This document shows positions 747 to 20,864 of a stretch of DNA of 59,207 nucleotides, in pieces. Positions within the stretch are counted from its first letter, which is position 1. The number at the start of each line of letters is the position of its first letter. Made by a program: the position numbers and the translations under genes. The notes below the pieces were generated by a model. That model ran no database searches and was not told where the DNA came from. It was given only the letters and a program-made list of their open reading frames with translations. The DNA lies in NCBI GenBank assembly GCA_029242325.1, contig JAQWUD010000006.1:1-59207 (forward strand), read 5' to 3'. The DNA comes from Luminiphilus sp. Its GTDB lineage: Bacteria; Pseudomonadota; Gammaproteobacteria; Pseudomonadales; Halieaceae.

Positions 747-1119
747 AAAAGCTATGGCACGAACTGCTGCGTACTCTCGTTCACGAATGAACGGATATGA
801 ATGGCATGCGACACACAGTGAACCGGGTTTTGGGGTCAATCAGCGCGCACTTCTCCAGATCAGCAATCCCAGGCAACAGCATCAGTGAGGGTGTCTGCTC
901 TCAACAGGGCCTTTATATCTCCTATACTTCCTCCCTATTCGCCCTATGGAATAACCCTGCTCACACATTCTGCCCCAAAAATTTTTTTAAGGCCTCTGCA
1001 CCTCAGGATTGGAATGAGCGTACATACTTGCAAAATCTTGGTGCGAGTTCGGTTTTCGGTTGAAAAAATTGCTCGTAGCTCTTATGGTTGCGCGACTCGA
1101 GGCCTGCTCACAGGGAGCA

Positions 1120-1267
1120 GCGGTTCGGAATAGGTTCGGACTGCTTCAAATCGAAAATCAGCGTCCTACAAAGACCTTACGAATCTTCCGCTTACGGGAG
1201 GCTAAACCGGGTCTCCGGGATCCGCATAATCGATTGGTCGTAGGTTCAAGCCCTACCGGGCGCACCA
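1120..1267 (+). repeat. Repeat copy A1 ending in a tRNA 3' half (site S1)
   Basis: Bases 1120-1209 match the segment at 19002-19100 closely. They are followed by a shared core (gggtctccgggatcc, 1210-1224) and then a tRNA 3' half: CATAA anticodon-loop-like bases at 1225, T-stem 1240-1244 paired with 1252-1256, T-loop TTCAAGC, acceptor strand 1257-1263, discriminator A and CCA at 1265-1267. The layout resembles the 3' half of a CAU-anticodon tRNA. No 5' acceptor strand or pairing 5' anticodon stem is present upstream, so this is not a working tRNA gene. It looks like an attachment-site-type junction. Confidence 0.75.
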
Positions 1268-1471
1268 TTACTCTGCGGTCGTTACAGAACTGGCTCTTAT
1301 CCACGGCAAGAGAGGGCCACGGAAAACCCTTGCTGAATGCGTTATCGGGATTCCTGATGGGAATTTAGGCACAACAACCGCGAGTAAGCCCATTGGTGCA
1401 ACAGATTTGGCCAGCGGGATAACACGAAGATCAACGAAGATCATATTTAAACAACACAAGTAGGAAGGTTA

Positions 1472-2047
1472 ATGAGCGACAGACTGGCACTGAACAAACT
1501 GGAAAAACTGATTGAGATAGAAACCCAGCTTCGAGAGGAATACCAACAACAACTCGATACCAAAGACACGTCGATTAATCAGCTGTCTCAAGAGAAGACG
1601 GCGCTGGAAGCCAAAATGGGTGAGTTAGAGAAAACGATCACGACCCAGCTGACGACCATTACCGAGCTCTCTGGCAAATCTCAAGACGTTCAAGCGCTTG
1701 AGCAACGCAATCGAGAGTTACACAACCGCTCAGAGAATATGAAGGAAGAAGTTGCAACGGTGAAAAGCCGACTCAAGACATTGCAGAAAGATCTTGCTGA
1801 AGAGCGGACCGAACTGGCGGAGCTCAAGAAGTACGATCCTCAGCGTCTTCGTAAAAACTTGGATACCTCTAAAAGGAAGCTGGTCGAAAAGACCGAGGCT
1901 GCGAACAAGCTGCAGAAATCACTGAGCGAGGCGCGCTCGGAGAAGGCCCAGCTCGAGCAGAAGGTGAATGGCCTCGAGGCACAGCTCGAAGAAGTCACTG
2001 CGCAGCAGGACGACCAAACTCAAGATGGAGCGCAGGCCGCCGCATGA
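1472..2047 (+). CDS. Coiled-coil protein of unknown function
   Basis: This is a 191-residue, highly charged protein predicted to be almost entirely alpha-helical coiled coil: heptads of Leu/Ile/Val between Glu/Lys/Gln runs from residue 5 to about 175, then a Gln/Asp/Ala-rich disordered tail. There is no signal peptide or membrane segment. Start ATG 1472 is preceded by an AGGAAGG ribosome binding site at good spacing. Its stop overlaps the next start (ATGA, 2044-2047), so it heads a translationally coupled operon with small membrane proteins and a DsbB-like protein. I cannot assign a function; a scaffold role is only a guess. Confidence 0.8.
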   Translation: MSDRLALNKLEKLIEIETQLREEYQQQLDTKDTSINQLSQEKTALEAKMGELEKTITTQLTTITELSGKSQDVQALEQRNRELHNRSENMKEEVATVKSRLKTLQKDLAEERTELAELKKYDPQRLRKNLDTSKRKLVEKTEAANKLQKSLSEARSEKAQLEQKVNGLEAQLEEVTAQQDDQTQDGAQAAA

Positions 2048-2154
2048 TGGTCACCCGCACGCGGGACGCTAAACTGCTTTCAATACGGTGTGGCATTGCT
2101 TTTCTCGTCGGCCTTGGCATGATGGCGCGCTTGCTTCACAGCGGCACCGTTTGA
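2044..2154 (+). CDS. Tiny membrane ORF, coupled to the coiled-coil gene
   Basis: An ATG overlapping the upstream stop opens a 36-residue frame with one hydrophobic segment (CGIAFLVGLGMMARLL) that ends at TGA 2152-2154. The TGA overlaps a TTG (2151) that opens the next hydrophobic frame. Either these are two tiny coupled genes, or one gene of about 97 residues with three membrane segments that carries a frameshift near 2150. The second reading gives a more normal small membrane protein. Not recognised. Confidence 0.4.
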   Translation: MMVTRTRDAKLLSIRCGIAFLVGLGMMARLLHSGTV

Positions 2155-2339
2155 GTATCTTGCTTCCCTTTTTGGCTGCTATTGTGCTGCTTTGCACCAT
2201 CGCCATGTGCTTGGCGTTTTACGGCGAGTATGCTTCACATATCAAGCGGTCAATATTGGTTTCCGCTTGTCTTGTGATCGGTTTTTCGAGCGGCATCGCG
2301 CAACAGCGTCTGCGCCCGCTCATCGAGAACATCACATGA
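2151..2339 (+). CDS. Small two-helix membrane protein, possibly the other half of a frameshifted gene
   Basis: A TTG start overlaps the previous TGA. The 62-residue product has two hydrophobic helices (about residues 3-22 and 32-47) and a short basic tail. Its stop overlaps the ATG of the DsbB-like gene (ATGA, 2336-2339), so four consecutive frames are joined by overlapping stops and starts. An ATG in the same frame at 2088 would add a non-hydrophobic, unlikely N-terminus. Function unknown. Confidence 0.45.
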   Translation: MSILLPFLAAIVLLCTIAMCLAFYGEYASHIKRSILVSACLVIGFSSGIAQQRLRPLIENIT

Positions 2340-2740
2340 ATGTACTGGATCTCCATTTCTGGCGACAAAACCAGCGCGTACTCGGGATAATCACAATCGC
2401 GATAGGGGTCGGCGCGTGGGGTATGGAATTTGCCGGCACAGTATATGTGTGCCCCTACTGCAGAGTGCAACGTACCGCGATCCTGCTACTAGGATTGATT
2501 ATGGTGCTGCCTTTCTCACGGCACTGGATTGCGCAATATCTCGCTTCGGTGGTCGGCTTTATGGGCGCCGTGGTGGCCGTCAATCAGAACTTCATGGGGT
2601 GGGTAAGAATCTCCAAGGGCACATTTACTTTTAGTGAGCAGCTCTATGTCGACCCCTTCCTGCTATCAGGTAGCGCACTGTTTATCCTCATTGGCCAACT
2701 GTGGCTGATACTCAGCAAGGACAGCACTGCTGCGTCTTGA
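2336..2740 (+). CDS. Short DsbB-like four-helix membrane protein with CPYC motif
   Basis: This 134-residue protein has four predicted membrane helices (about 18-34, 47-63, 66-83, 111-128) and a CPYC motif at about residues 39-42 at the outer end of helix 1, followed by RVQR. That matches the CxxC quinone-proximal pair and following arginine of DsbB-type disulfide oxidoreductases. The second periplasmic cysteine pair of true DsbB is missing, so it may use a different partner or be a reductase-like relative. The start overlaps the previous stop. It is the last gene of the coiled-coil operon. Family resemblance is seen; the partner is unknown. Confidence 0.6.
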   Translation: MNVLDLHFWRQNQRVLGIITIAIGVGAWGMEFAGTVYVCPYCRVQRTAILLLGLIMVLPFSRHWIAQYLASVVGFMGAVVAVNQNFMGWVRISKGTFTFSEQLYVDPFLLSGSALFILIGQLWLILSKDSTAAS

Positions 2741-3190
2741 ACTAAGCCGTCTCCTTGCCGATTACCACATATCTAGTGGTTCACGGCGGCAGCAATCTCC
2801 CGAATCAACATCGTTGCAATGAAGAGCAGGTAATGGAGGAATCCTAGTGTGACCCCGGTAAGGCCCCCAAGATCCTATTGGGGGCACAGGAGAAGCTCCC
2901 GGGTCAGCATAATCGATTGTCATCGCGGGACACCCGGAGGACCGCCATGTCGACCCCCGGCAGATCAAGGGAGTAGCGCCGCCGCATGCAGCTGGTGACC
3001 CCGCCGCAGGTCAACTCGTCGTGAACTCCTTTTAAACTCTCGCTAGTCATTGCGAAATCTGTTTCTGGTGACGTAAAGGCTGGCGCCTTCCAGCTATTTA
3101 GGCCCGTGTAAAGTGCATCTCTGGTACGTAAACTTAGGAGAGCTAAGTTCATGTTGTACTAGGGTGCCTTGGTTAAGAAATGGATCAAAA
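2741..3190. other. Intergenic stretch with degraded tRNA-half repeat (site S2)
   Basis: This 450-base gap separates the DsbB-like operon from the M60 peptidase gene. It holds a hairpin/T-arm remnant and core at 2863-2919, described separately. No credible gene, terminator T-run or clear promoter was seen in the rest. Confidence 0.5.
2863..2919 (+). repeat. Degraded tRNA-half repeat (site S2)
   Basis: Bases 2863-2885 form a perfect 8-bp hairpin (gcccccaa / ttgggggc), and its tcctattggg segment matches the T-arm/acceptor part of site S3 (9162-9171). Directly after it, 2895-2919 repeats the core of site S1 (ccgggtcagcataatcgattg against ccgggatccgcataatcgattg, one-base gap). The T-arm that should follow the core is lost. 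Hence two broken tRNA-half units sit back to back. Confidence 0.5.
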
Positions 3191-6089
3191 ATGACGTATT
3201 TCCGCTGGGCGTTAGTCTGCATCCTACTATTTTGGACCACGGCATCAGCAGCGGGCTCCTACCACTTTGACTTTAACAACACGCTTAACAGCGACCAAGA
3301 AAGGGTCAATGCCCGGAATCTAATTTTCACGCGCGTTGAAGATCGTGGAGGCTTGACCTACTCAAGTTTTGTCAGGGAGGCCGCATCTTTTGAGACCGAC
3401 TCCGATCAGACAGCGGTCCAATTGTTGGGATGATTACCTTGATTTCTCGCCCAATTTGCTCGAAGACATTGATACCAGCAGGCCGTTTAGATTCGGCCTT
3501 CACTTCAAAGCCTCTGCTGTCGACGAGGTCACCAATGCGTCACCCTGCTGCCCAGACTCTATGGCTCGAACCCTCCTGACGACAAATACCGGAGATCAGC
3601 GCGATCTTGGGCTTTCAATTTATCTGGATGCCCTCGAGGTAGGTGACAATCAAGAATTTGTGCTCTTCGTCAACGTCGGAGATGGCCGGTCTTTCCTAAC
3701 CTCCGATCCTAATGGTTACAGTGAGGGCTATCGCTTTACGGTAGGAACCGCGCTTGAAGATAGGTGGTACGAACTGACGGTCGAGATTGATCTACAACAT
3801 GCGGGGAGGGAGAAGCTCACGGTTATTTTTGACGGGGCGCAGTACAATTTCGCAATTGATGACCCCAGTCGACTTAATACTGCTGCGCTCAAACGGCACT
3901 TTGAGGGTCAGTTAGTGGGTGTTCCACCGTTCGATGTCTATGCCGAATTCTGCGAACGCTATGAGTGCTATCAACTGGGTCTGCCAGATCCGATGTCGGC
4001 ACCACAACTTTTCCTGGGGGCTTTCCCCGACATGGATCCTCATAACGCCACTATTGATGTGGCTATTGATCGCCTCTCTTTAGACAGCCCAGTTCCCGAG
4101 GCCAGCCCGGAAATATTGAATGCCATTCTTGAAACTTTTATTGCGCAAGTTGAGGGAGCCGCTTTACAGCCGGAGGACGTGTTAGCTGAGGGCTACCTTA
4201 ATTTTGTGCAGGGCTTTTATTCAGATTGGGAAAATATTCAGACCAATGTGCTTGAGTTAATCGCGGCATACAGTGCGACAAATCCCCCACTTTTTGACGA
4301 CGATTCACTGCGCTCTCCGGCTACGTTTTCAACCGAAGGAAAACTGGTCTATTTTCTCCAACAATGGCTATTGGATAATCGCTTCCAGGGAACTTTCAAC
4401 GCAGCGGACGAGGGCATATTTTTCGAAGACAGTGAGCGCTGGCCGGGGTCAGTGTCAGTAAATGCGCCCAGAATTTCTGCAGCTTTTGATGTGGATGCCA
4501 CCTATCAATCTGATCCGGCAATCCTTTTGAATAACCAAGAAACCGTGATCAGACCAACCGGTTATTACGCGGCCCCCGGAGAAGCCGTCACCTTAATCCT
4601 GCCAACGGCTGCAGTAAGCGATAACTTAAAAATCCGTATTGGTATCCACCGTGCAGACATGGAGAGTGGAGGGCACACAGAATTCAATCGATTCCCGAGA
4701 ATTGCCAGTCTTTACGATATTACCCAAGAGTCCGTAACCATCGCGAATCCCTTCGGCGGCGGAGTCTACTTTGAAGTCAGTGACGGTACCGATCTGGGGC
4801 CCATACAAGTCAACATAGAAGATGCGGTGGCTATACCCATGTTCTCGACTTTAGATCTCATGGGGCATAGCGATGATCCAACGGATTTCTTTGCAAAGGT
4901 CGACACCTGGCAAGTGCCCTGGTTCGAGCTTCATGGGCAACATTTCTCCGCCACGCTACCTATGAATGAAGCGAAACTTTATCCCGACCCCGCTGCGGTA
5001 CTGCAATTGCTGGATGATGGGTTCGAAGACATTCGATTGATGGCCGGCCGGCCTCTCACTGGTACTAGAGCCGAATGGCTGGCCTATGATCGCAATGTCA
5101 CCGTATATGGCACGGCGTTGACCGCCAGCTATCCGATTTATCCGAATCAAGACCTCGGCGAGCAAGGCGTATTTCTGTCAGAACCCAGAAATTACGCATC
5201 ACCGAGCCGCCTGATGGACCCGGATTTTTTTGACGTCACTGTAGATACAGCAGTTGCTGAAGCAGAAAATTGGTATATGAACACCTTGTTTCATGAATGG
5301 GGTCATTTACACAATCTTCCTACATTAGGCTACCAAAAACAGGAGTCTAACGTTCATTTATTAGCCAGTGTCTTTTATAACCGCACCATGGGAGCTGATA
5401 TCGATACCGCCTTGCAATATTCAGGCTTCCAGTTTTTTGACCGAGACCAGGCAGCGCTCGACACCATGTTTTCACCCAACTGGCAAATCGGTGAACGACT
5501 GAGCGCGGGAGAGCAAATCTATGGTATTTGGGATAACGAAGTTCGTTACCAAACCCGGAGCTGGGCACGAATTGTTGAGATAGCAGCCCTTTATGGATGG
5601 GACGCCGTTGGTGCCATCCATAAAGCTTTTTATGATCGAGGCGTAGCGCAGGGTTCACCCATAAATTATGGCCTAGAAGACGATGACTTCATCGAGAAGG
5701 CATCCGCTGCTCTCAACCTTAATCTTGGTCCTATTTTTGACTTTTGGGGCGTACCTCCCTCCCGTGAGCTCACACAGCGGCTCAGCCAATACCCCCCACC
5801 TGACAGGTTCCGAGCGAGATTGGAGCACTACCGCAAGATCGCGCCACGCACAGCGGCAGACTTTGAATCGATCTATAAAATACATGCAAAACTGCATAGG
5901 CCAGAGTCTGAGGTCATGATTCGCATGGATTGGTATCGCGAGCAGTTTGACGCGCAAATGTCCGACACCATCATCGCTCGGATCGACGATATTTTAACGG
6001 CCTTTCCACAAAACCAAGATGGTGCCAGTGGAAGATTCAACAATCTTTTGGATACCATCAACAAGTCCATAGGTCGCGCTGGAGGTTAA
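3191..6089 (+). CDS. Secreted M60-like (enhancin/accutase-type) metallopeptidase, frameshifted near 3430
   Basis: ATG 3191 starts a signal peptide (MTYFRWALVCILLFWTTASA) and a LamG/ConA-like beta domain. That frame closes at TGA 3431-3433, while the domain continues without a gap in the overlapping frame (DDYLDFSPNLL onward) to TAA 6087-6089. A one-base shift near 3420-3433 would restore a protein of about 965 residues. The C-terminal half matches the M60 peptidase domain: a TGYYAAPGEAVT segment, RIGIH, NPFGGGVYFEV, and the zinc motif HEWGH at 5292-5306 with a likely third ligand Glu at 5343. M60 enzymes cleave glycoproteins such as mucins. Isolated pseudogene, sequencing error or a true frameshift cannot be told apart here. 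Confidence 0.75.
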
Positions 6090-6193
6090 GATGGCGCGAT
6101 CTCTAGAAAGACTAATTCCCGCCTCATGAACCACCTGCTATCGCGAATACAATATGGTGCAGCTGTGTTTACTGAGGCAAGCGAGACCTAATC

Positions 6194-6739
6194 ATGGCCA
6201 TTAAATCGAGTATCTATAAAGCACAATTAAGCGTTACGGATATGGATCGGCACATCTATGACAGCTTTTCGCTGACTATTGCGTGCCATCCGTCAGAAAC
6301 TAAAGCACGCATGATGCTGCGTATTGTGTGCTTCGCGATGCATGCAGATCCCAATTTATTATTCGGCCGCGGTATCAGCACCGACAATGAGCCTGATTTA
6401 TGGCAGCGATCTTTGTCGAATGATATTGAGCTTTGGATCGATCTGGGGACGCCAGATGAAAGCCGGATCCGCAAGGCGAGCGGCCGTGCGAAACGGGTTC
6501 TTTTGTATGTGTATGGTGATCGCTCGGTTGCAGTATGGTGGGCAAAGAATGCAGCAGCGCTGAAGCGGTTTAATAATGTCAGTGTCGTGCAAATATCAGA
6601 CGCATCGATGCGGGCTATTGCTGAGTTAGCCAGCAGCAATATGTCATTGCAGAGTATGATCGAGGATGGGCAGTTGGCCCTGAGCAGCGCCGAGCACGAG
6701 ACGTTGATTGAGGTGGAGCTGACAACGCTAAAAGCATAA
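6194..6739 (+). CDS. yaeQ: YaeQ family protein
   Basis: The 181-residue product matches YaeQ along its whole length: an IYKAQLSVTDMDRHIYDSF start, HPSETKARMMLR, STDNEPDLWQRSLS, ELWIDLGTPDESRIRKA, a VWW motif and a C-terminal MIEDGQLALSS segment. The family has a PD-(D/E)xK nuclease-like fold; E. coli YaeQ was once linked to RfaH bypass, and its molecular role is unsettled. Length is normal and the frame is intact, unlike several neighbours. The ribosome binding site upstream of ATG 6194 is weak. It stands alone between two secreted-protein genes in the repeat-divided region. Confidence 0.93.
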   Translation: MAIKSSIYKAQLSVTDMDRHIYDSFSLTIACHPSETKARMMLRIVCFAMHADPNLLFGRGISTDNEPDLWQRSLSNDIELWIDLGTPDESRIRKASGRAKRVLLYVYGDRSVAVWWAKNAAALKRFNNVSVVQISDASMRAIAELASSNMSLQSMIEDGQLALSSAEHETLIEVELTTLKA

Positions 6740-7034
6740 AACAGTGCATTTCGTCTGAGACATTGCCTCTTTTCGAACCCACAGCGCCAAACCAGCAAAG
6801 AGTAAAGAAATAAAACACGCTATGGGCTATCGAGCGCTCGTTGAGGATTGACCGAATAGGAATGACATGCCCAACGCCGCAACCAAGATTTGCGGTTAAA
6901 TAGGCAGCGATTTCGACAGGTCCAGTCGACAGATTAGGTGAGCATGCCTGCCCTCGACAGGCTATTAGGTTTTTCCACCACAGGACCGAGGGTCCAGCTA
7001 GTCTTCATGTCAAATTACAAGGGAAACAATATTC

Positions 7035-9092
7035 ATGTCAGGCTCGGCCTCCCTATTCGCAAAACTGCTCGCAACGCTGCAACTGATGAGCGGCGGGGGA
7101 ACCCCCCCACAGGCCTATACCGTTGGGGGCAGCATAACCGGGCTGGATGAGGGGTCTTTGTTAGTCATTGCGCTGAATGAGGCGCAACTCGAAATCACCG
7201 GCAATGGAAGTTTTGTTTTTCCGAACGCCCTGAATGATTTAACCAGCTACGAGGTTGACACCATCAGTGAACCGCCGCGTGTGGACTGCGATATCAACGC
7301 CAACTCGGGGACCATCATGGGACAGGACGTGGGCGACGTCGAAATCACTTGCGAGACCAATGACAGCGCACAAGTATTTGCCCTCGATCGACTTCATCGG
7401 GTCCGGATTACCATGACTTTAGAAGAATGGCGGGCTTTCGAACTGGATACGATTCGAGCCAACTACTCGATACGCGATGCTAGCGGCGATGCCTCTCCCC
7501 TGACGTCCTACTCCCATAGCGAGGTTTACAGGCAGGCCGATTTTACCTGGCTCAATAGCGATGGCAGTGAGACGCGGGTTGAAAAGGTCGGCTTTAAAAT
7601 GCAAGGCAATACCAGTCGTCAGTATCCCATCGACCAAGATGCCGAGCCGAACAGACCTGGACGCTTCAGCTTCTCAATTAAATTTGACGAAGAATTTGAT
7701 GAGGATGAGAGCGTTTATGCCTGTATTGACCATAACGGCAGCCCCGCTGCCGTAGAGGGGTTTCCCTGCCTCAATATTGTTGGACAGGATTTAACCGAAT
7801 ATCCGGAAGCCGACGGTAGGGAGTTTATGGATGTTGAGAAGCTCCGTTTCCGCTTCAACCGGGATGATCCCAGCTACCAGCGAGAGGTTCTCGCCCACGA
7901 GCTTTTGAATGCGGTGGGCGTGCCCGCCGCTCGAGCTGCCCATGCCCAGGTTGATCTCGTTGTAACAGGGACTGCCGATCAGGAACTGTTCGGAACACCC
8001 CTGCCGCAAACTTTCAATATGGGGGTTTTCAATCTGATAGAGCAGATTGACAAGCCCTTCCTGAAGCACTATTTCGATAAGAATGGTTATCTTTTCAAAG
8101 TGGGTGCGCCAGGCAATCTAGCTGGACCTTCCATCGTGGATACAGACTGTAACCCCTACGAAGACGGTGAGGTTTTCTACAACGAGAACTTCTGTGTAGT
8201 GGGTGTCGAGAAGTCCGACCCCGACTCTGCCCTGGAATGGCTGGGTGAGGACAATTATCTCAGACCCGATTTCGTCAACAGCAATATCAATGGCGATGGC
8301 ACTGAGGGTAACGTCTCGCAGTTTCTACCCTATAAGCCGACCTATGACCTGAAAACCAAGAAGAAGTCCTTTAATGAGGCTCGAGAAGCATTGCGAGATT
8401 TTGCGGCTTTTGTCCAGAGCCGGCCCAACTCCTCCGAATTGACCACACGCTTCGACGTACCGGGTTTCATTAAGGCCCAAGCGATAGAGATCGTGCTCGG
8501 TGCTGTCGATCATTACGTACGGGTGGCCAATAACTACTATCTGTACTACAACGAGACCAGTGACCGCTGGGTGTATATTCCCACCGATTTCGACTACACC
8601 CTCATTGACACCTTAGGACCAAACTGTGCGGTAAACCCGGAACTACCGACCTGCAACCAATTCCTGAACTTCGAGGCCTTCACCGACGTCGCTTCAACAA
8701 CGGCCTTCGATACGGGTGTGGCGCCCCATTGGGCGGGCCGATTCTTCTACCCCAACTACCCGCCCATCCTGTGGGATCTTGTGTTTGACAGCGCCGACAA
8801 CCGTATTGCTCTTTATGACGCCATAGCGGCTATCATGGAGCAACACTTCGACTGGACTTTAATTGGCCCGGTGCTAGCCGAGCGACGCGAGCGGTTGGAC
8901 GATAGCATTAAAAGTACGGACGCCTCCGATGCAGAGGCGAACCTAGGTGGCTCCGATTGCGCCCAAACCTACAATCCAAATGAGATTTCGGGCGCCTCAG
9001 AAAATTTCTGTGATCCACGAAGGGCTTCGATTCAGGGCTTTGTTGAAGCGCGCCGAGCGACCTTGCTCGAGGAAATCGCGCAGAACCGTTAA
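7035..9092 (+). CDS. CotH kinase-like secreted or surface protein
   Basis: The 685-residue protein begins with a short hydrophobic stretch, then a small beta domain of the YTVGGSITGLDEGSLLV type (residues about 28-110) common in marine surface proteins. A CotH-type domain follows (about 115-680). Supporting motifs are KMQGNTS (about 188), a DVPGFIKAQAIE helix, VANNYYLYYN, and IPTDFDYTLID (about 515), matching the Gly-Asn-Ser and metal-binding Asp motifs of CotH protein kinases. Relatives phosphorylate spore-coat or secreted proteins; the target here is unknown. ATG 7035 has only a distant AAGGG, and the usual lipoprotein signal is not obvious, so the true N-terminus may be altered. Confidence 0.75.
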   Translation: MSGSASLFAKLLATLQLMSGGGTPPQAYTVGGSITGLDEGSLLVIALNEAQLEITGNGSFVFPNALNDLTSYEVDTISEPPRVDCDINANSGTIMGQDVGDVEITCETNDSAQVFALDRLHRVRITMTLEEWRAFELDTIRANYSIRDASGDASPLTSYSHSEVYRQADFTWLNSDGSETRVEKVGFKMQGNTSRQYPIDQDAEPNRPGRFSFSIKFDEEFDEDESVYACIDHNGSPAAVEGFPCLNIVGQDLTEYPEADGREFMDVEKLRFRFNRDDPSYQREVLAHELLNAVGVPAARAAHAQVDLVVTGTADQELFGTPLPQTFNMGVFNLIEQIDKPFLKHYFDKNGYLFKVGAPGNLAGPSIVDTDCNPYEDGEVFYNENFCVVGVEKSDPDSALEWLGEDNYLRPDFVNSNINGDGTEGNVSQFLPYKPTYDLKTKKKSFNEAREALRDFAAFVQSRPNSSELTTRFDVPGFIKAQAIEIVLGAVDHYVRVANNYYLYYNETSDRWVYIPTDFDYTLIDTLGPNCAVNPELPTCNQFLNFEAFTDVASTTAFDTGVAPHWAGRFFYPNYPPILWDLVFDSADNRIALYDAIAAIMEQHFDWTLIGPVLAERRERLDDSIKSTDASDAEANLGGSDCAQTYNPNEISGASENFCDPRRASIQGFVEARRATLLEEIAQNR

Positions 9093-9109
9093 CAACACCC
9101 CGGTCATAA

Positions 9110-9177
9110 GACTCGGTGGTCGGATCACGCCCGGCATTGATCGATTGGTCGCAGGTTCAAGTCCTATTGGGCCACCA
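9110..9177 (+). repeat. tRNA 3'-half repeat (site S3)
   Basis: An actcggtgg element (9110-9121) and a gc-rich spacer lead into the core tgatcgattggtc (9138-9150), then GCAGG-TTCAAGT-CCTAT (a partly mismatched T-arm) and an acceptor end with CCA at 9175-9177. It is followed without a gap by repeat B1. No 5' half of the tRNA is seen. Confidence 0.65.
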
Positions 9178-9289
9178 TTTTCATAAAATCCAGAGCGTTA
9201 TAACCACTTGGAGCATCCGACTATGGGCTCTGACTCATAGACTGAGGGAGCCGATGCGAGCGCAATTTCGAAATAATTGAGCGTCATCT
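9178..9289 (+). repeat. Repeat B1, diverged copy directly after site S3
   Basis: This is a diverged copy of the 149-nt unit seen at 12440 and 17640, recognisable from the TTTTCATAAAA start, GTTATAAC, CTATGGG, AGACTGAGGGAGCCGATGCG and TTGAGCGTCATCT blocks. It begins at the base after the tRNA-type CCA, as B2 begins after the CATCA end of site S5. Similarity stops close to 9290, and the truncated dbpA fragment begins at about 9305, so the repeat edge coincides with a gene break. Confidence 0.65.
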
Positions 9290-9304
9290 AGGACGGGGGT
9301 TCCC

Positions 9305-11036: not shown

Positions 11037-12401
11037 ATGAACGAACGAGCTGACTTCGTATTCACACCGACAACCAAAGCGCCTGAACCAGAACTGGGGT
11101 TTGAACGGATCCCCGTTGATCGATACACGGACCCTGCATTTTTGAAATTGGAAGATGGCCGCATTTGGTCGAAGACCTGGTTGCTGGCCGGTGCAGCCTG
11201 CGATGTTGCCAAGCCTGGCGATTTTTTTGTTTTCGAAAATCTTCGAGAATCAATTTTGGTAACCCATGCAGACGATGGAATGATTAGAGCGTTCTATAAC
11301 GTCTGCCAACACAGGGGGAATCAATTGAAGGCGTCGGGATGTGGAAACTCCCCGTACCTGAGCTGTGGCTTTCATGGCTGGCAATACCATCTGGATGGCG
11401 GCATAAAGGAGATACCCGAAGCACACGATTTCCCCCAGGGGGTCCCCGCCGAAAAACTGAGCCTCAGGGAGCTCAGGTGCGAGACATGGGGAGGGTTCGT
11501 CTGGGTATCCATGGATCCTGACATCGAGCCCTTGGTGGATTATCTTGGTATCGTTCCCGAACATCTTGCGCCCTACGAATTAGAATCAATGGTGCTTGTT
11601 TCTGACGAAACCGTCGAATGGAACTGTAACTGGAAGACATCCGTCGACATTTTTTCAGAGACCTACCACGTTCGCGGCGTACACCCAGAATCTGAGTATC
11701 TTGCCGATGATGTGAATGTGCAGATGGATCTATACGGCCCGCACACTCGCTTTATCGCGCCCATGTATATCCCTAGCCCCCGCAAGATTAGGCAAGACAA
11801 AGCGCTGAACGAAACAATGGTTGGATACCTGAAATCCGAGGGCTTTCCGGTAGACTCCTTTGAAGGAGATGTCACAACGCTGCGAGGTGCAGTAGCTGCA
11901 CACAAACGGTCAATGACGAATGAAAACGGCCTCGACTTTTCGAGGCTGACCGACGATCAGCTGACCGCAGACTACCACTACAATATTTTCCCGAACGTCA
12001 CGTTCAATCTCTTCGGCGAGCAGGTGTGGATGTTCCGTCATCGTCCACATCCCACTGATCCTGACAGAATGTACTTCGACCGTATGATCTTTAACCGTGT
12101 TCCGAAAGGCGAGGCTACAGCAGGCACAAAAGCCGGCGCGGTCGACCTGTTTGTTGAGTTGGGCGATGCCGACATTGATGGGCGCCCTGAGCACAGGTTT
12201 TATCGCTATGGCGAGGAGTCTTCGGGATTGTTACTTGACCAGGACGCATCGTGTCTTGCCGGCGTACAAAAAGGGCTGCACTCGCGCGGCATGAAGGGGC
12301 TCTGGATTTCTCATCATGAAAGGCGCATCCGCAACTTTCACCATTGGTGGGAAAAGTACATGGCGGACCAACCCCTTATGCCAAAGCCAGTCGATTGGTA
12401 A
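11037..12401 (+). CDS. Rieske non-heme iron oxygenase, large (alpha) subunit type
   Basis: The 454-residue protein carries a Rieske [2Fe-2S] motif C90-x-H92-x17-C110-x2-H113 and a mononuclear iron centre with H211 and H216 (SETYHVRGVHPE) plus a likely C-terminal Asp ligand (LLLDQDASCLAGVQKG). Such enzymes hydroxylate or demethylate aromatic rings or quaternary amines using electrons from a separate reductase, which is not nearby. ATG 11037 is chosen over the in-frame ATG 11016 because CGGAAG sits 7 bases upstream. The stop codon (12399-12401) touches the tRNA-half remnant S5, so gene and repeat abut. Substrate unknown. Confidence 0.9.
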   Translation: MNERADFVFTPTTKAPEPELGFERIPVDRYTDPAFLKLEDGRIWSKTWLLAGAACDVAKPGDFFVFENLRESILVTHADDGMIRAFYNVCQHRGNQLKASGCGNSPYLSCGFHGWQYHLDGGIKEIPEAHDFPQGVPAEKLSLRELRCETWGGFVWVSMDPDIEPLVDYLGIVPEHLAPYELESMVLVSDETVEWNCNWKTSVDIFSETYHVRGVHPESEYLADDVNVQMDLYGPHTRFIAPMYIPSPRKIRQDKALNETMVGYLKSEGFPVDSFEGDVTTLRGAVAAHKRSMTNENGLDFSRLTDDQLTADYHYNIFPNVTFNLFGEQVWMFRHRPHPTDPDRMYFDRMIFNRVPKGEATAGTKAGAVDLFVELGDADIDGRPEHRFYRYGEESSGLLLDQDASCLAGVQKGLHSRGMKGLWISHHERRIRNFHHWWEKYMADQPLMPKPVDW

Positions 12402-12439
12402 TCAATTAGTCCCAAGTTCAAGTCCTGGCAGCCCCATCA
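12400..12439 (+). repeat. tRNA 3'-half repeat (site S5) at the Rieske gene stop
   Basis: The segment aatcaattagtcccaag, then TTCAAGT-CCTGG, an acceptor-like CAGCCCC and ATCA (for ACCA), is a decayed version of the S4 tRNA half; the T-stem pairs at four of five positions. Its first bases are part of the Rieske stop codon. Repeat B2 follows immediately at 12440. Confidence 0.6.
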
Positions 12440-12588
12440 TTTTTCATAAAAGGCATAGAGTTATAACTACTAAGAGCACCCGCTATGGGTGCTGACGCGT
12501 AGACTGAAGGAGCCGATGCGCGCGCTATTTCGCGATGATTGAGCGTCATCTTCGGGTCAGAGATCTGGGTGGCGCGAGGGGGTTTTGC
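12440..12588 (+). repeat. Repeat B2, 149-nt unit
   Basis: By eye this copy matches 17640-17788 over 149 nt with about six mismatches and no gaps. It opens with TTTTTCATAAAA, carries a perfect 7-bp hairpin (AGCACCC 12475-12481 / GGGTGCT 12487-12493), a second small inverted pair (GATGA/TCATC around TTGAGCG) and ends in GGTGGCGCGAGGGGGTTTTGC. There is no open frame in it. The rest of the gap to 12821 contains nothing recognised. Confidence 0.8.
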
Positions 12589-12821
12589 ACAATACCTCCT
12601 TTGTATTGCGGATGCTTTTCAAGCCAGTTCGCCGTGGTGACCCCCGAGCAGAAACTCGTTCACTTTCTATCAGTCACTTGAGGTCGACAAATCGTTGGTA
12701 CACCTTCCTAGGGCAACTTGTAAGCCGCTTGCAGGTAGAGCTGTTATCTACCCGAAGCGAGCAGGTCCTTCGGCCCGTTCACTCTGACTGCGTCAGTGAT
12801 GCGTCTCGAGCTTCAAACCGC

Positions 12822-14111
12822 TCAACGCACCCTGTTTGCGAACAAAGGGTCGAGAAAGAGATAGAGCTCGTCATTTGGCTGCTGAAGCCACGCATCGAAC
12901 TCTTCGGTGTATGTTTTATAGTCCTTGCCGAAACTACGTATAAATGTCTCAGAGAATCCCTCTTTATCTACTGCTTCCCAAAACTGGTATATCTGCTCCT
13001 CTCCATGCTCGGCTACGAGGTAGGCGACGAACCAACTACCAATTCGGTAAGCCAAATCAACGGTGTCACCTTGATTCCATGACAGGTTGTAGAGTTTTTC
13101 CGTCTCTTCAAAGTATTGAGCTTTCCGGGGCTGAGAAAAAGGGCCGTAGCCTTCTAGGGCGTCTTGCATTGCCCACCTGAAGTTATCGGCATCGCCACTG
13201 TACAGCGCGGCAAAAAAATCGGCGTTGCCTTCCATCCACCATGCAACATCCACATTTAGGTTGTCGCCAGATCTCTTGCCCATCTTGTTTTTTAGTTGGT
13301 ATTGATCGAAAGCTGTAAAAACATTGGAGAGCTGATAGATATGAAATAATTCGTGGAAGGCCATGGACCGACTCGCTCCATGTCCCCTTGTCGACATGTT
13401 CAGCTTGTAATACCCGGTAAGCGGGCCGTTAGAACTGATTGAACCACCGCCTTGCACGTAGGTGAGATGATCACTATCGTCGCAATTGAGAATTTCTCTA
13501 AACCCCGTTTCTCGTATGTGATTACAGTAATCTAAATTAACCTGCCTGCCTGCCTCATCGTCAGTACCATAAACTATGAGGTAAATAGCGCTAGCTTGTT
13601 TTTTGCCATAGTAAGGGTCTTCCATCCATACCGCATACGCGTCTTGAGAATTGAGAAAATTTTCATCAACTATGTCCTTTGTTACGTCGCTTGCCGCGAA
13701 AACACGCCATATTTCAGGGTCAATAAACTCGGCGGAGGCTTCAGGCATAAAAATCTTGATGGGTATACTGGTTCGCCGCTCGATGAGTGACTGCAGTAAA
13801 TTAGCAAAGAGGGTCTGTGGCGTGGTGCTCGAGTTAACCTCTCTATAAAACAGATTGGTCTCAACGGCTGGAGTGGCGAGATTCAATGGCTCGATTGCAC
13901 GAGCCGACAGCTTTGCTTCATTTTTTGCGCTGATTCCATCTTCACCAGATTCACCCTCTGTCCCTCCTGTGTCATAACCACGCAATCTAACGAGCGTCTC
14001 AAGAACGCTTCCTTCGTTCACGAGCACATCAATGGTCAACTCTTGCTGCGCCGAATAGGATGCCGAGGCATAGATGAAGCAGAGTACCGTGGCAAATTTG
14101 TAAAGTTTCAT
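12822..14111 (-). CDS. Secreted zinc metallopeptidase (gluzincin, MA-type)
   Basis: The 429-residue product starts with a signal peptide (MKLYKFATVLCFIYASASYS, then A) and has a zinc motif HELFH in SMAFHELFHIYQ. About 45 residues later comes WWMEGNADFFA, the WxxEG(x)A pattern that supplies the third Glu ligand in gluzincin families of the peptidase-MA type. A GTG at 14120 in the same frame is possible, but ATG 14111 begins the signal peptide cleanly. The first 100 mature residues are poorly conserved-looking and acidic. It precedes, on the same strand, no close partner: the larger M12-like peptidase gene lies 110 bases upstream. Substrate unknown. Confidence 0.75.
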   Translation of the reverse strand: MKLYKFATVLCFIYASASYSAQQELTIDVLVNEGSVLETLVRLRGYDTGGTEGESGEDGISAKNEAKLSARAIEPLNLATPAVETNLFYREVNSSTTPQTLFANLLQSLIERRTSIPIKIFMPEASAEFIDPEIWRVFAASDVTKDIVDENFLNSQDAYAVWMEDPYYGKKQASAIYLIVYGTDDEAGRQVNLDYCNHIRETGFREILNCDDSDHLTYVQGGGSISSNGPLTGYYKLNMSTRGHGASRSMAFHELFHIYQLSNVFTAFDQYQLKNKMGKRSGDNLNVDVAWWMEGNADFFAALYSGDADNFRWAMQDALEGYGPFSQPRKAQYFEETEKLYNLSWNQGDTVDLAYRIGSWFVAYLVAEHGEEQIYQFWEAVDKEGFSETFIRSFGKDYKTYTEEFDAWLQQPNDELYLFLDPLFANRVR

Positions 14112-14221
14112 CACAGTCACCTATCTCTCATAAACAAACCGGCCGCAGACTCCGCTCCTCTCATTTGGCAATATCTGCGAGGGCCTTCCTTAGCCCCCGG
14201 AAGCTTTTATGAATGGAATAC

Positions 14222-17200
14222 CTAGCGCACTACTTTCAGCCTGCTAAGCCCCATTAGGGTCAATATGGTGCTAAGAATCAGAAAGCCCAATAAGGGCAGC
14301 ACAGGAATAGGCGCTACCACTCCCGACCGATCCTGTGCTCGAGTTTCATGGGCGGAATTTTTGGAGCCTGCCGTATCCACGTTAGGCCGAGCAGCCGCTT
14401 GCAGTGAGCTTGAGGAGGCCTTGATACCATAGGAAGCTGCCAGCGCCTCAAACTCCGCAGAGCCAATAAATCCATCGAGCACATATTCTCGGCTCTTACC
14501 CTGCGCCAAGGCATCTAGCCATCCCTGCTTACCCCCCGCATCAGCCTGTCTGCCGAAAAATGCCTGATAGCAAGTATTCACAAAGGCATCGTCACCCGTG
14601 TTCTGACTCAGGTACTCAGCCGACAGGAAGAACGCTTTGGCAATATCGCCACCCGCATAACTACCATTGCCAAGAGCAGTCACCCAGTTATCAAAACCAC
14701 CCTTATCAGGTTGCCTGCCCAATACCAGCGTATAAAAACGCTCTGCAAAGGCACGGATACCATAGGCTGACTCATCTGCCGCGCTGAACGCCGTCACGCC
14801 AAAGCTGTCTGAGAGATTCTTGAACTCTGCGCTGCGGAGGAATCCATAAATTACCATCTCTCTAAGCTTCCCAGATGCCAGCTCGTCCATCCAAACGGCC
14901 ACCCCACCCGCATCACCTTCCCGGTCAAACAGAGTGCGGTAGAGGATGTCCACGAAAGCGGAGTCATCCAGGTTTTTATTAAGGAACTCGGCAGAATTTA
15001 AAAAACCCAGCGCCACTGCTGCCGCTGATTCGGTATTAATAACGTTGAGCCATGCATTGAGGCCACCTGAATCACTGGGGCGGCCTAAAATATTCGTATA
15101 AAAGCGCTCTACAAAAGCGCTGGCTGACGCTGAAGAGACCACAAGATTCGCAGTGAGCGTCGCACCCGAATAATCCATAAAAGCATCTATGCGAACGTAG
15201 TATCGCCCTTCGGCTGGGTCGGTGAACTCGCATATTTCATCAGCACCCGCAGCATTCCAACTGCGGCACAACCCGCTGTCGTCAGTTGGCGGAGGAAAAG
15301 TGGTATCGACATAAAGATCTGGATCCCCTTCCACCACATCCAGAGCCACCTTAAGTGAGGTGGCATTAGCAGGCACATCAATATAATAGACGCGGTAAGT
15401 ATCTGCGGAACCCGCTAACCCGGATACCGGCACACCATTGGTGAGTTCTGCAAGCGATGTGGAGAAGGTTGCCGCCACGGTACAGGCGCTGCTTACTGCC
15501 GCAGTGGTGTAAATGTTATTGGTCAGAGATCCGCCACAACCTGTTACCGAACTAATCTCATAGCCGCTATCAGGCGTCACCGTGAACCTGGTGGTAGCCC
15601 CTGAAACGACGCTAACGCTCCCGGGCGATATTGTCCCGCCCGCACCCGCCGTTGCCGAAACAGTGATATAGGTGATCGCGCTCTCACTAAGCTTCGGCAA
15701 ACATTGAGTCGAAGCTGCTGCAACTTGCGCAGCTTTTCTGGACATCCGCGTTGGCACACGCTCTGGCTCTATCCCGTATAAATGACCCAAGCCGAAGGTA
15801 TTCGCAATATTCGAGTTGCCACCGCCCCACTCACCAGACGCTGGCTCATAAACATGGCAGTAGCTCATAATTGTCCCGTTGCGTCCTCGGATGGCACCAC
15901 CGGTCAGTGAGGCAGCCCCTGGCAATGCCGTGGTGCCCTGAAAACACTGCTCAGTGTCGTCTTCATCCACGAAACAGCCATCGATTGGTTGGCTATTTCC
16001 CTCCACACCCGCATAGCAGTGGGTGTGTCTAGAGCCGAAGTTATGCCCAATCTCATGGGCATTCACGATAGCGTCCCAACTGACGTTAACTTGATCCGTC
16101 GGCACCACTCCATCCACGCCGCTCACCGAATGTCCGTAGCTATAAGAACACAACACATCCAAAGAGGCTCTGCCACCGCTCAACGTTGATGACAAGTGGG
16201 CGACCAATGCACGATCTACCTCGTTGCGGTTCGATCTCCAGTTATTCCTTACCTCTTCCAGTCTGGTTTTAGTGCTCTCCGTGTCCGTGTAAGGATCAGA
16301 TTCTGATGTCAGAAGGAATACATCCCCGACCCGGAGTCTGGTTTTAATTTCTCGCTCGTAGACGACACTATTAAAAGCAAAGAGCTGCGCAACATAATCG
16401 TTAGCCGCTGCCGCCGAGCCAAGCTGAGCGTAAAGCTCATTGTCTACTTCTACCGCAACGGTTGCGAGATACAGATCATCAGACGCCAATGGCGTACCGT
16501 AGCCAAATTGGACGTTAGTTTCGGGGGTGTCCTCGTACAAATAAACGGCCAAATAATAGGTGCCCGCCTCTGGGTCGGCGATAAAGCATTTGGCAGATTC
16601 ACAGTAATCAAGCTCAGACCAGACCGAAGCCGGATTAGGGTTTGCAGATACATATACGCTGGCAGATCCACCTCCATCTTCTCGAGCGATGGCACCCACA
16701 TAGTCAGCGCCAGCAGGAACTTCGATACTGTAAGGACCATGCCAACCCTTGCTTGAACCAATCGCAATGTTGGTGCTGGGCGCGAGCGAGATTGACGAGG
16801 CAGGCTTGCGCATCGGTAATTGTCTCAACGAACTAGGAGGTGGCTTTCGCTTGGGCGGCACCTCGTAATCGGGATAGCTTGGTGTTTGGATTTTATTGAA
16901 TTTCTTCAGCGCTTGGTTCTTTGGAGGCGCATGCCAGTTAATGGTAGCGCCCGTCCAAACGCCCTTTAATATGTCCTTTCCACTACCAACATAAAAATCA
17001 ACCTCGTCACCTTGCTTTTTGATAACAATAAAGGCGTAGGATCCTCGACTTTCGGCGATCTTTCCGCGGTAATAAATGTGGTCCCCGCCGTGCTGGTCGG
17101 GAGACAGAGCTTTGCCGTTTATCCACACTTTTCGTGAGGGGTCAAATGGAGAATATCTTGAGAGATTGAGTAAGGTTTTAGGGTTGGCTGGATGGTTGAT

Positions 17201-17374
17201 TAATAATGTGAGATCGGTAGGCGCCTCTAAAAACACTGCCTTAAAATCCGCCGCTGCGCTTTCACCCAACGACAAATCTATCGACCTCTCAGCCGAAAAT
17301 ACTGCTTGAGCCTGAAAACCAGTCATCCAAATAAGAATCGCGCAGCAGAATCGAGAAAAATTCTGTCTGTACAT
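14222..17374 (-). CDS. Large secreted M12-type (reprolysin-like) metalloprotease with PPC and DUF4214 domains and C-terminal membrane tail
   Basis: The 1050-residue protein has a signal peptide, a propeptide-like N-terminus, a pre-peptidase-C-like beta domain (about 200-300) and a metzincin catalytic domain with HEIGHNFGSRHTH (from residue 440; bases 16043-16057) and the Met-turn IMSYCH. Next come a bacterial beta repeat (ATAGAGGTISPGS), a second PPC domain, two DUF4214 units each with paired FAERFYTLVLGR/FFLSAEYLS-type helices (about 750-985), and a Pro-rich, membrane-spanning tail ending in basic RLKVVR. The tail resembles IPTL/PEP-CTERM-style sorting signals. ATG 17374 is favoured by GGAG upstream. 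DUF4214 often accompanies S-layer or secreted proteins. Confidence 0.85.
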   Translation of the reverse strand: MYRQNFSRFCCAILIWMTGFQAQAVFSAERSIDLSLGESAAADFKAVFLEAPTDLTLLINHPANPKTLLNLSRYSPFDPSRKVWINGKALSPDQHGGDHIYYRGKIAESRGSYAFIVIKKQGDEVDFYVGSGKDILKGVWTGATINWHAPPKNQALKKFNKIQTPSYPDYEVPPKRKPPPSSLRQLPMRKPASSISLAPSTNIAIGSSKGWHGPYSIEVPAGADYVGAIAREDGGGSASVYVSANPNPASVWSELDYCESAKCFIADPEAGTYYLAVYLYEDTPETNVQFGYGTPLASDDLYLATVAVEVDNELYAQLGSAAAANDYVAQLFAFNSVVYEREIKTRLRVGDVFLLTSESDPYTDTESTKTRLEEVRNNWRSNRNEVDRALVAHLSSTLSGGRASLDVLCSYSYGHSVSGVDGVVPTDQVNVSWDAIVNAHEIGHNFGSRHTHCYAGVEGNSQPIDGCFVDEDDTEQCFQGTTALPGAASLTGGAIRGRNGTIMSYCHVYEPASGEWGGGNSNIANTFGLGHLYGIEPERVPTRMSRKAAQVAAASTQCLPKLSESAITYITVSATAGAGGTISPGSVSVVSGATTRFTVTPDSGYEISSVTGCGGSLTNNIYTTAAVSSACTVAATFSTSLAELTNGVPVSGLAGSADTYRVYYIDVPANATSLKVALDVVEGDPDLYVDTTFPPPTDDSGLCRSWNAAGADEICEFTDPAEGRYYVRIDAFMDYSGATLTANLVVSSASASAFVERFYTNILGRPSDSGGLNAWLNVINTESAAAVALGFLNSAEFLNKNLDDSAFVDILYRTLFDREGDAGGVAVWMDELASGKLREMVIYGFLRSAEFKNLSDSFGVTAFSAADESAYGIRAFAERFYTLVLGRQPDKGGFDNWVTALGNGSYAGGDIAKAFFLSAEYLSQNTGDDAFVNTCYQAFFGRQADAGGKQGWLDALAQGKSREYVLDGFIGSAEFEALAASYGIKASSSSLQAAARPNVDTAGSKNSAHETRAQDRSGVVAPIPVLPLLGFLILSTILTLMGLSRLKVVR

Positions 17375-17889
17375 GATGAGTGCTCCAACAGTGATTGGGC
17401 TGTTATGCAATCATGAATAGTTTAACAGACAGCCAGCTACCCTTTATGACTGCGTCATTGATACGCGATTAGGGCTAATGACACTGTCATCGCACACTGA
17501 GAGTCATCAAGCATAAGGAAAGTGCCACCTGAATCTGTCTCTGATCTTAGACGCCTCGGCGAGGTTGATATTGTTTTCCCACCTCGTACAACCCGCGCAG
17601 GCTGCCATGCGGATCTCCTCGACTGGCAAAGGAGAGGTGTTTTTCATAAAAGGCACAGCGTTATAACTGCTTAGAGCACCCACTATGGGTGCTGACGCGT
17701 AGACTGAAGGAGCCGATGCGCGCGCTATTTCGCGATGATTGAGCGTCATCTTCGGGTCAGAGATCTGGGTGGCACGAGGGGGTTTTGCCCCATACCCGAT
17801 TTATATTGGTTATCCACCCAGCGCGCATCACGCTTCGTTTGAAGAGACTCGGAGACCCCCAGTATCGATTACGGGTTAACCGGAGCACA
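17375..17889. other. Intergenic stretch with repeat B3
   Basis: These 515 bases between two leftward genes hold repeat B3 (17640-17788). Bases 17410-17639 and 17789-17889 show no gene, and unlike sites S3 and S5 no tRNA 3' half is recognisable before the B repeat. Confidence 0.5.
17640..17788 (+). repeat. Repeat B3, 149-nt unit
   Basis: This is a near-identical copy of B2 (about six mismatches by eye over 149 nt), with the same AGCACCC/GGGTGCT hairpin and the same GGTGGCACGAGGGGGTTTTGC right end. It starts after an unrelated GAGGTG, so here the tRNA half has been lost or was never joined. The high identity argues for recent duplication or ongoing recombination. Confidence 0.8.
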
Positions 17890-18873
17890 CTAGAAGGCGA
17901 AATCACCCTCCACTGTCGTCAGTCCCAATGCGTCCCAATCGAGCATCCCCCCACGATAGTAGTGGATTTTCTCTGCAGGAAAGCCGTCACGGATCATCGC
18001 CCGCATCGCGGTGGGACTTTGGGGGCAGACGGGGCCGTTGCAGAATCCGACTACGTTGGCGGCATCGCTACAATCCCAACCCCCATCGCCCTTCTTACAA
18101 CCGAGTTCGTCCATCCGCATAGCCACCTCGGTGTAAGGAATGTTAACTGAGCCCGGGATGGTGGCATCTAGGAACCACTCCTCAGTGCGCATGTCCACCA
18201 AAATAGTATTGGGGTCACCAATCGCATTGAGGACCTCGATTTCCGTCACAGGCACAATGCCGGGCTCGGGCACCAACGGTTGCAACCAGCCTTTATTCTT
18301 GGCGCAGGGCGTCATTTGCCGGGTAATAGTGATGCTCTCTCCAGAGGGCAAGGCGGCAACGAAGCTTTTCCCCTCGTCAATGATACGGAGATCCTCATCC
18401 GCAAAGAATTGAATACCAATACCTTCAGCCCCCGTCGCGTGCACCATCATAAAGCCCGCGTCGTCGAATACCTGAAACTCGGTGTAGAGCCCATCGTTGA
18501 TGACGGCCTTGTGAATCGAATCACTCACCTGCCCACCTGCGGTCATCTTGGTTTCGATAAACACGACATTACCCGATGCGTGAAAGGCTATCGGCTCAAC
18601 CTTGAAGTCTGGCCAGAGCGCACCAATCGGCCCAAAGACCTCCTCGATCACCTGCTGCGGGCCGACGTAATTGCCTCCATAGGGAAAACCCTTGGGCATC
18701 TCCCACTTCACATCAGCCGACTGGGTGGCGGCCCAAGCTTCCATGTCACCTGTCGCGAAGGCATCGTAACCCGCCTTCGCGACAGCAATAACGGCGGCAT
18801 CACTTTTGCTACCTGCCTGACAGGCCGCGAGCAACGAGAACAGAAAAGTTGTGCAGATCAATCGAACAAACAT
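17890..18873 (-). CDS. Lipoprotein with SnoaL-like and rhodanese domains
   Basis: The 327-residue protein begins with a lipoprotein signal (LLAAC lipobox, Cys at about residue 18). A SnoaL/NTF2-like fold (AYDAFATGDMEAWAA..., about 25-150) is followed by a rhodanese domain (about 215-325) with active-site loop CNGPVCPQS and the VDMRTEEWF start motif. ATG 18873 has GAGGA six bases upstream; a longer frame to 18960 lacks this and would bury the signal peptide. Rhodaneses transfer sulfur via the loop cysteine. The fusion of these two domains on one lipid-anchored periplasmic protein is unusual; role unknown. It is flanked by repeats B3 and A2. Confidence 0.85.
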   Translation of the reverse strand: MFVRLICTTFLFSLLAACQAGSKSDAAVIAVAKAGYDAFATGDMEAWAATQSADVKWEMPKGFPYGGNYVGPQQVIEEVFGPIGALWPDFKVEPIAFHASGNVVFIETKMTAGGQVSDSIHKAVINDGLYTEFQVFDDAGFMMVHATGAEGIGIQFFADEDLRIIDEGKSFVAALPSGESITITRQMTPCAKNKGWLQPLVPEPGIVPVTEIEVLNAIGDPNTILVDMRTEEWFLDATIPGSVNIPYTEVAMRMDELGCKKGDGGWDCSDAANVVGFCNGPVCPQSPTAMRAMIRDGFPAEKIHYYRGGMLDWDALGLTTVEGDFAF

Positions 18874-19227
18874 AAGAATTCCTCGGATATCACTAATTGC
18901 CACTAAACTATGCTCAAGCGCCTCGTTTTTCAAATCTTCCTGCATCGACCGCTTTGGCATAAACGGCCTTACATCACTAAATTGAGTTTTTCTTTTAGGG
19001 CGCGGTGGCTCGGAATAGGTGCGGAGTTCCTGAAATCGAAAGTCTGCGTCCAGAAAAGACCCTACGAATCTTCCCCTTAGGGCAGGCTAACAAGGGGTAT
19101 CCAGGATCCTCATAATCTACTGGCACCCCGTTCAAGTCCTGGTGGCCCAGCATTTCTCCCCAGGAAAACTCGCTACTTCACTGACACCGGCATAAAAAGG
19201 GGAATCTCCAGTCTTTTAAGGTTGCCA
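18874..19227. other. Intergenic stretch with repeat A2
   Basis: This gap between the divergent rhodanese lipoprotein and amidohydrolase genes is largely filled by repeat A2 (19002-19152). Nothing else is recognised. Confidence 0.5.
19002..19152 (+). repeat. Repeat copy A2 ending in a tRNA 3' half (site S6)
   Basis: Similarity to A1 (1120-1267) runs through GCGG..CTCGGAATAGGT.CGGA, TCGAAA.TC.GCGTCC, AAGACC.TACGAATCTTCC.CTTA and the core (GGGTATCCAGGATCCTCATAATC), about 150 nt with scattered mismatches. The tRNA half (19111-19152) has a damaged T-stem (CCCCG against CCTGG), TTCAAGT loop, and CAGCA for the end. Of the copies with an acceptor end it is the rightmost, and no further copies were seen to 59207. 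Confidence 0.7.
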
Positions 19228-20850: not shown

Positions 20851-20864
20851 GCCCAGGGAATATC

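Follow-up and report, generated by a model that had tools for sequence, protein, structure and literature searches.

Probable tandem accretion of integrative elements and integrase-less modules at tRNA-Ile2 in a Luminiphilus genome

The stretch of DNA analysed here, which we call the window, comprises 59,207 nucleotides of contig C9 (JAQWUD010000006.1) from a Luminiphilus genome (G000) of the family Halieaceae. It contains five partial copies of one tRNA gene, designated S1, S3, S4, S5 and S6, all of which lie on the plus strand and represent the 3' half of tRNA-Ile2(CAU), with protein-coding modules between them (Table 1). An initial annotation, made from the letters alone, had listed six such copies: five of them stand, with 28 to 36 matches to the 39 informative positions of the tRNA-Ile2 3'-half consensus that we used for scoring, while S2 turned out to be a stub that retains 12 nt only, CATAATCGATTG (2908–2919), without T-arm and without CCA. 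Likewise, the spans which that annotation had assigned to S1 and S6 contain real cores, but take in sequence of a conserved arm as well. The matching full tRNA for which it had proposed to search is indeed present, intact, in the same genome (G000:C35:4-80, minus strand), where contig C35 stops three bases past the CCA end. ARAGORN labels this gene tRNA-Met(CAT); from its sequence we take it to be the isoleucine tRNA with a CAU anticodon, tRNA-Ile2(CAU). Within the window ARAGORN found zero tRNA genes, and a scan of the window against Rfam gave a single irrelevant match (E 0.9).

As control for the scores, the scanned DNA (889,168 bases, both strands) was subjected to a plain mononucleotide shuffle, which reached at most 24/39. 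Since in real DNA the 3' half of another tRNA-like sequence scores 30/39 (L074:1121), the assignments of S5 and S6 lean also on context, that is, on a unit termed B that follows S5 and on the arm that precedes S6. The T-stem half of S4, S5 and S6 reads CCTGG, as in the tRNA-Ile2 of three relatives (G034, G037, G044), and differs from that of the host tRNA. A search of the own genome with S1 and with S5 plus B, which had been suggested along with the search for the tRNA, returned the first 19.2 kb of C9, the donor tRNA and one degenerate scar on contig C31; all else was other tRNA genes or short low-scoring stretches. The scar (G000:C31:133198-134247; L169 2699-3748) lies 1.7 kb behind tRNA-Arg(CCT) and consists of a degenerate S and, ∼0.9 kb away, a right arm that lacks a full S. 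Behind tRNA-Ile2 or S, several relatives also carry a repeat of ∼120 bp that includes the last tRNA bases (L073 4453-4800; L079, L084, L069), which we take to resemble the tyrT/rtT repeats of E. coli.

In relatives, S copies are often preceded by a conserved right arm of ∼180 nt, which in the window is full at S1, truncated at S6 and left as a trace at S4; the S1 arm is one of the five seeds of the hidden Markov model (HMM) that describes it. By eye, a TTCGG pair and, after it, TTAYGAATCTTC can be made out twice in the arm, which typically closes with ATCCT directly 5' of CATAATCG, where the tRNA gene has CGACT. Identity with the tRNA therefore starts at the anticodon loop, and in 20 aligned copies the boundary of the arm falls exactly there. 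The same 20 arms exhibit no conserved fold beyond the T-stem of the tRNA, which points to a double-stranded protein-binding site. The combined model of arm and S matches 114 of 140 genomes; many of these matches represent the tRNA gene, so that the count was restricted to arms observed on retrieved DNA, where matches to arm and core over at least 140 of the 221 model positions occur in 22 genomes from six genera. This count excludes L116 and L128, whose filing under Alphaproteobacteria is probably a case of misbinning, because L116 appears, by eye, to carry the flank with a coiled-coil and a dsbB-like gene that is considered below. Among named genomes, a search for the junction yielded HTCC2080, Luminiphilus syltensis NOR5-1B, uncultured Luminiphilus and Chromatocurvus halotolerans, and no contig in IMG/VR contains the 20-nt sequence across the arm–core junction as an exact match. 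One further match of the junction 20-mer, in L124, was rejected as chance.

The B unit of the initial annotation is genuine and occurs in three copies (9217–9289, 12440–12608 and 17640–17808), the last of which has no S before it. That B is a left arm is suggested by its similarity to the left terminus of a module with both arms but no integrase in G083, a one-contig genome of another genus, and, over a shorter stretch, to an element of L. syltensis (83% over 30 nt). This explains the unit only in part, because its second half occurs without S upstream of the gene for a RIO-domain protein in G025 and G010 and in an unrelated place in G006:C39 (L131 3522-3631; L132 3365-3463; L070 10126-10231).

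The location of these sequences is uniform in one respect: on every contig with both, 16 of 16 among the matches listed, an arm-bearing S lies downstream of tRNA-Ile2 and on its strand (G053, G056, G048, G019, G011, G083, G081, G068, G113, G070, G067, G069, G082, G084, G088 and G134; the tRNA was confirmed by ARAGORN, except for a 45-nt model match in G084, G088 and G134 and for those typed by a match to the 5' half). Four relatives (G034, G037, G038, G044) have an empty site, consisting of a GST gene, tRNA-Ile2 and a coiled-coil gene, with 174–182 bp between the last two. Because GST and the tRNA end C35 in the own genome and the coiled-coil gene follows S1 on C9, S1 reads as the right attachment site (attR) of an element at tRNA-Ile2. 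The coiled-coil/DsbB pair, previously taken for an ordinary cargo module, is normally the chromosomal flank of this tRNA. In the window a block of ∼18.8 kb with S2 to S6 separates dsbB from a gene labelled c7, and this block is missing in three relatives, which have either coil, dsbB and c7 (G049) or coil, dsbB and c3 (G017, G025) in succession, so that the comparison of presence and absence proposed at the outset came out in favour of an insertion at the tRNA junction and for the S2–S6 block as a whole. Identity of the DNA to G049 is 84% for the coiled-coil gene and 80% for dsbB, as against 70–74% for c7, c3 and c4 (c8, 78%), and the pair was therefore probably imported.

A tyrosine recombinase that fits these sites was found in relatives, with the arm and S downstream on its strand. 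Eight elements ending in arm and S encode a full tyrosine integrase of ∼400 residues, and these integrases form one clade with 49–83% mutual identity (two in G056, and one each in G067, G069, G082, G084, G088 and G134), their genes lying 2.3–11.4 kb before the arm and on the same strand; in G027, a C-terminal piece of another member of the clade is located 0.5 kb before arm and S. All three integrases scanned (the two of G056 and that of G067) contain the arm-DNA-binding domain of Pfam. The gene beside the integrase is a primase according to Pfam in one G056 element, G067 and G069, and gave no primase match by Pfam in G082. As the initial annotation had stated for the window, C9 has no match to PF00589. 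The own genome has five such matches outside C9, none of which belongs to the clade (tblastn, no match at E 1e-12), in a comparison based on the longest open reading frame (ORF) per locus, which possibly is not the integrase in every case. Relatives of the integrase are distant both in phage records (25–29% identical in the eight matches listed) and in plasmid records (34–37% in the six listed), with every best match in either place below 60%. The subset of element proteins that was scanned contained no relaxase and no phage structural gene, and for the ten scanned against PHROG the matches were limited to int, primase and HNH. A second, distant tyrosine integrase (25–28% identical to the clade) lies directly behind tRNA-Ile2 in G053 (L067:767-1831), N-terminal remnants are located behind S copies in G053 and G040 (L067:13166-13243; L091:3266-3412), and a tyrosine integrase is also found behind the tRNA in G041 (L138:173-835). 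The elements of L. syltensis contain EcsC-family genes in both cases and a gene with a reverse-transcriptase domain in one (L074:15137-16171; L074:17908-18822; L066:3233-4045), which are perhaps defence cargo.

Taken by themselves, the divergence of the S and B copies, some of them without like neighbours, the occurrence of B-like sequence without S, and the scar on C31 are what one might expect of a dispersed tRNA-derived repeat between unrelated genes. We consider this very improbable, however, since nearly all matches in the own genome are in C9, orientation and place relative to the tRNA are constant on the 16 contigs, the arms are tied to one integrase clade, and empty sites exist; nor are the repeats spread over the genome between core genes with modules never gained or lost. 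The donor tRNA, the empty sites and the arm-tied integrases thus favor the notion of an att-like, tRNA-sited array that the initial annotation had put forward.

A collection of 34 intervals between such sites, compiled by hand from the sites seen and therefore non-exhaustive, falls into two groups. Those without integrase, defined as having no PF00589 match at E 0.001, number 24 and span 1.1–10.6 kb (median 2.7 kb); the ten with integrase span 4.5–30.2 kb (median 24.2 kb), two of them carrying other integrase families (G053 670-5218; G067 tRNA-15113). Window intervals S1–S2 and S2–S3 were left out, since S2 is a stub. Integrase-less modules also occur in one-contig genomes (two in G083, one in G068), and some have full arms and perfect cores (e.g., G003 C13:85526, and G033). 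Their cargo in relatives includes, by Pfam, TPR, DUF1254/DUF1214, carbonic anhydrase, methyltransferase, fn3, patatin and P450 proteins, and in the window cargo is found in both orientations. Because relatives of the RIO, Rieske and CotH genes in other species reside at loci without a match to the arm/S model, all three appear to have been captured from among the ordinary genes of the chromosome. Short modules that follow one another in arrays, each with one to three genes and with a conserved site at one end, recall integrons, in which short cassettes are likewise laid out in series, and one could thus think of a cassette array with folded single-strand sites. Yet the 20 aligned arms lack the folded site of attC type, having no conserved fold beyond the T-stem, and the arm-DNA-binding domain of the three integrases scanned as well as the two orientations of the cargo likewise argue against such an array, which is the least probable of the explanations considered here.

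We suggest instead, with good though not full confidence, that the region arose by tandem accretion, at tRNA-Ile2, of integrative elements together with integrase-less modules that resemble cis-mobilizable elements (CIMEs) and share common att sequences. Elements of the Halieaceae would recombine at the 3' half of tRNA-Ile2 by means of the ∼400-residue tyrosine integrase, each insertion leaving the intact tRNA on the left and, on the right, an S preceded by the ∼180-nt right arm. For later elements, the tRNA and any S already present would both serve as points of entry, so that modules would pile up in one direction. The integrase-less modules of the window, in which att remnants belonging to this element family enclose one to three ordinary genes, would then be CIME-like, either decayed or cargo-only, and mobile only with or through the integrase of a relative. 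Three parts of this account are inferences: binding of the arms by the clade integrase, present or past movement of integrase-less modules, in trans or in cis, and the route by which modules are exchanged between cells.

In the window, the arms of S1 and S6 are mutually closest, or almost (74%), and the coil–dsbB pair and the additional c7 end look imported by recombination, as might be expected if modules had arisen by tandem duplication in place and subsequent divergence, or if homologous recombination between S copies had spread them, with no integrase involved. Every module, though, holds different cargo; the T-stem alleles of S4–S6 are unlike the host tRNA; and of 13 arms from multi-arm genomes, 11 are closer to an arm of another species than to any in their own genome (the exceptions being G033_8228 and window S6). 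Duplication or recombination without integrase is accordingly improbable in our judgement. Several observations nevertheless weigh against accretion at tRNA-Ile2 as well: (i) the lead of the other-species arm is below 2.5 points in three of the 11 cases, and other genomes contribute far more candidates; (ii) the join of C35 to C9 is unassembled, so that an integrase could sit in the gap; (iii) the ∼190 nt between S1 and the coiled-coil gene align to none of the empty sites; (iv) within the window, traces of both arms occur only at S3–S4 and at 17640–S6; (v) the second half of B is present elsewhere without S; (vi) the own genome holds the scar on C31 near tRNA-Arg; (vii) in HTCC2080 (G003) the arrays are on C13 and C18, whereas tRNA-Ile2 is on C17, with ∼40 kb devoid of S (at least 28/39) up to the coiled-coil gene; and (viii) the region upstream of the G055 array yielded no tRNA-Ile2.

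Under tandem accretion, the integrase-less modules may all be dead relics, with only the elements of 14–30 kb being mobile. For this speak the decayed state of the copies in the window and the decay to CIMEs described for other islands in the available part of a review (PMC5704250); against it speak the integrase-less modules with full arms and perfect cores, and the fact that such modules are far shorter than integrase-bearing elements, with few intermediates. We regard the matter as evenly balanced. It is a more tentative idea, possible but on the doubtful side, that, across the family, short, full-armed modules lacking a resident integrase are substrates in trans for the integrases that sporadic Halieaceae elements encode, such that ordinary genes of the chromosome (RIO kinase, Rieske oxygenase, CotH, carbonic anhydrase) would move between species as cassettes of one to three genes stacked at tRNA-Ile2.

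Tandem docking sites at RNA genes are already known in other bacteria; what is distinctive here is the family-wide site, the modules of one to three genes and the shared arms. As far as the accessible text of the report goes, tandem islands in Dehalococcoides similarly lie downstream of one RNA gene, with direct repeats of its 3' end and a conserved motif just upstream, and 15 of the 31 ssrA-specific islands have no integration module, a group for which cis-mobilization is discussed as a possibility (PMC3146451). There, however, the target is the tmRNA gene (ssrA), the repeats measure 20 bp and the motif 15 bp, and the recombinases are related to the Ccr type (PMC3146451), in contrast to tRNA-Ile2, 43-nt cores, ∼180-nt arms and a tyrosine integrase in the Halieaceae. 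CIMEs, and the tandem accretion of integrative and conjugative elements and of integrative and mobilizable elements, are treated in the review cited above; according to its available part, CIMEs have no integration or transfer genes, keep their att sites and stand in tandem at one target gene (PMC5704250). The present modules, for which no conjugative element or transfer is evident, resemble them; both arms are present in the G083 module, and in the window only S3–S4 and 17640–S6 have traces of both. Additive flexible islands of Alteromonas (PMC4119200) and Methylophilaceae (PMC10872708) also use a tRNA as target for added cassettes and have tRNA-end repeats; the accessible portions of these two reports describe no shared arm of ∼180 nt that would link integrase-less cassettes to an integrase clade. 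Tycheposons, as summarized in the available part of the latter report (PMC10872708), are tRNA-sited cargo elements of marine bacteria with a tyrosine recombinase; the tycheposon-like character proposed initially was overstated, as the likeness is one of analogy and membership is not claimed. Among the papers listed on genomic islands in Luminiphilus, HTCC2080 and Halieaceae, no title or abstract opening names the tRNA-Ile2 locus.

Our analysis thus identifies an insertion site that is shared within a widespread family of marine bacteria, and the ∼180-nt arm together with the 43-nt core provides a sequence signature for finding modules, paired with one integrase clade. Since integrase-less modules and integrase-bearing elements share the sequences of arm and core, the question of whether integrase-less islands are dead or are moved by other elements becomes directly testable.

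Table 1. Attachment-site copies, arms, cargo and flanking genes identified in the window
Feature	Position	Strand	Basis and remarks
Right arm of element ending at S1	1040–1224	+	HMM model 1–227 including core, 238.9 bits; conserved in relatives
S1 core	1225–1267	+	tRNA-Ile2 3' half, anticodon to CCA; 36/39 consensus positions
Coiled-coil gene (1472–2047) and dsbB-like gene (2339–2740)	1472–2740	+	Normal chromosomal flank of tRNA-Ile2 by synteny; DsbB by Pfam
Second copy of c7 3' end	2773–2830	-	Alignment and translation by eye; complete c7 at 21609–22043
S2	2906–2919	+	Stub around anticodon only; by reading the sequence
Cargo S2–S3: M60-like peptidase, YaeQ, CotH	3369–9092	+	Pfam
S3	9135–9177	+	32/39, ungapped scan
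Left arm (B unit) after S3, putative	9178–9289	+	79% over 67 nt to left end of integrase-less G083 module, E 1.5e-12
Cargo S3–S4: RIO-domain kinase	9730–10590	-	Pfam; DNA 89% identical to S-free loci of G025 and G010
S4	10803–10845 (10778–10845 including right-arm trace)	+	34/39; HMM 34.0 bits including core
Cargo S4–S5: Rieske oxygenase	11016–12401	+	Pfam; stop codon inside S5; G034 homology ends at 12390
S5	12397–12439	+	30/39; CAT of anticodon lost
Left arm (B unit) after S5, putative	12440–12590	+	78% over 71 nt to G083 left end; role of second half uncertain
Cargo: 432-aa protein without Pfam match and reprolysin-like metallopeptidase	12822–17410	-	Pfam
Left arm (B unit) without preceding S, putative	17640–17790	+	93% to 12440–12608 over 169 nt
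Cargo: SnoaL-rhodanese fusion	17890–18960	-	Pfam
Right arm before S6, 5' part missing	18981–19110	+	HMM model 50–218 including core, 114.3 bits
S6	19111–19153	+	28/39; heavily decayed

Three further features of the window may be mentioned. The last cargo ORF before S6 joins a SnoaL-like lipoprotein to a rhodanese domain and seems to have been fused by a deletion, as the matching stretches in G044 and G037 are two neighbouring genes. A conserved stretch at 543–937 recurs at G000:C23:1563-1872 and, near tRNA-Ile2, at G046:C94:2603-2990 and G019:C105:4778-5080; it is presumably a remnant of IS91 type. Finally, an amidohydrolase-like stretch at 19222–21018 extends across several overlapping ORFs and, judged by eye, is apparently a broken gene.

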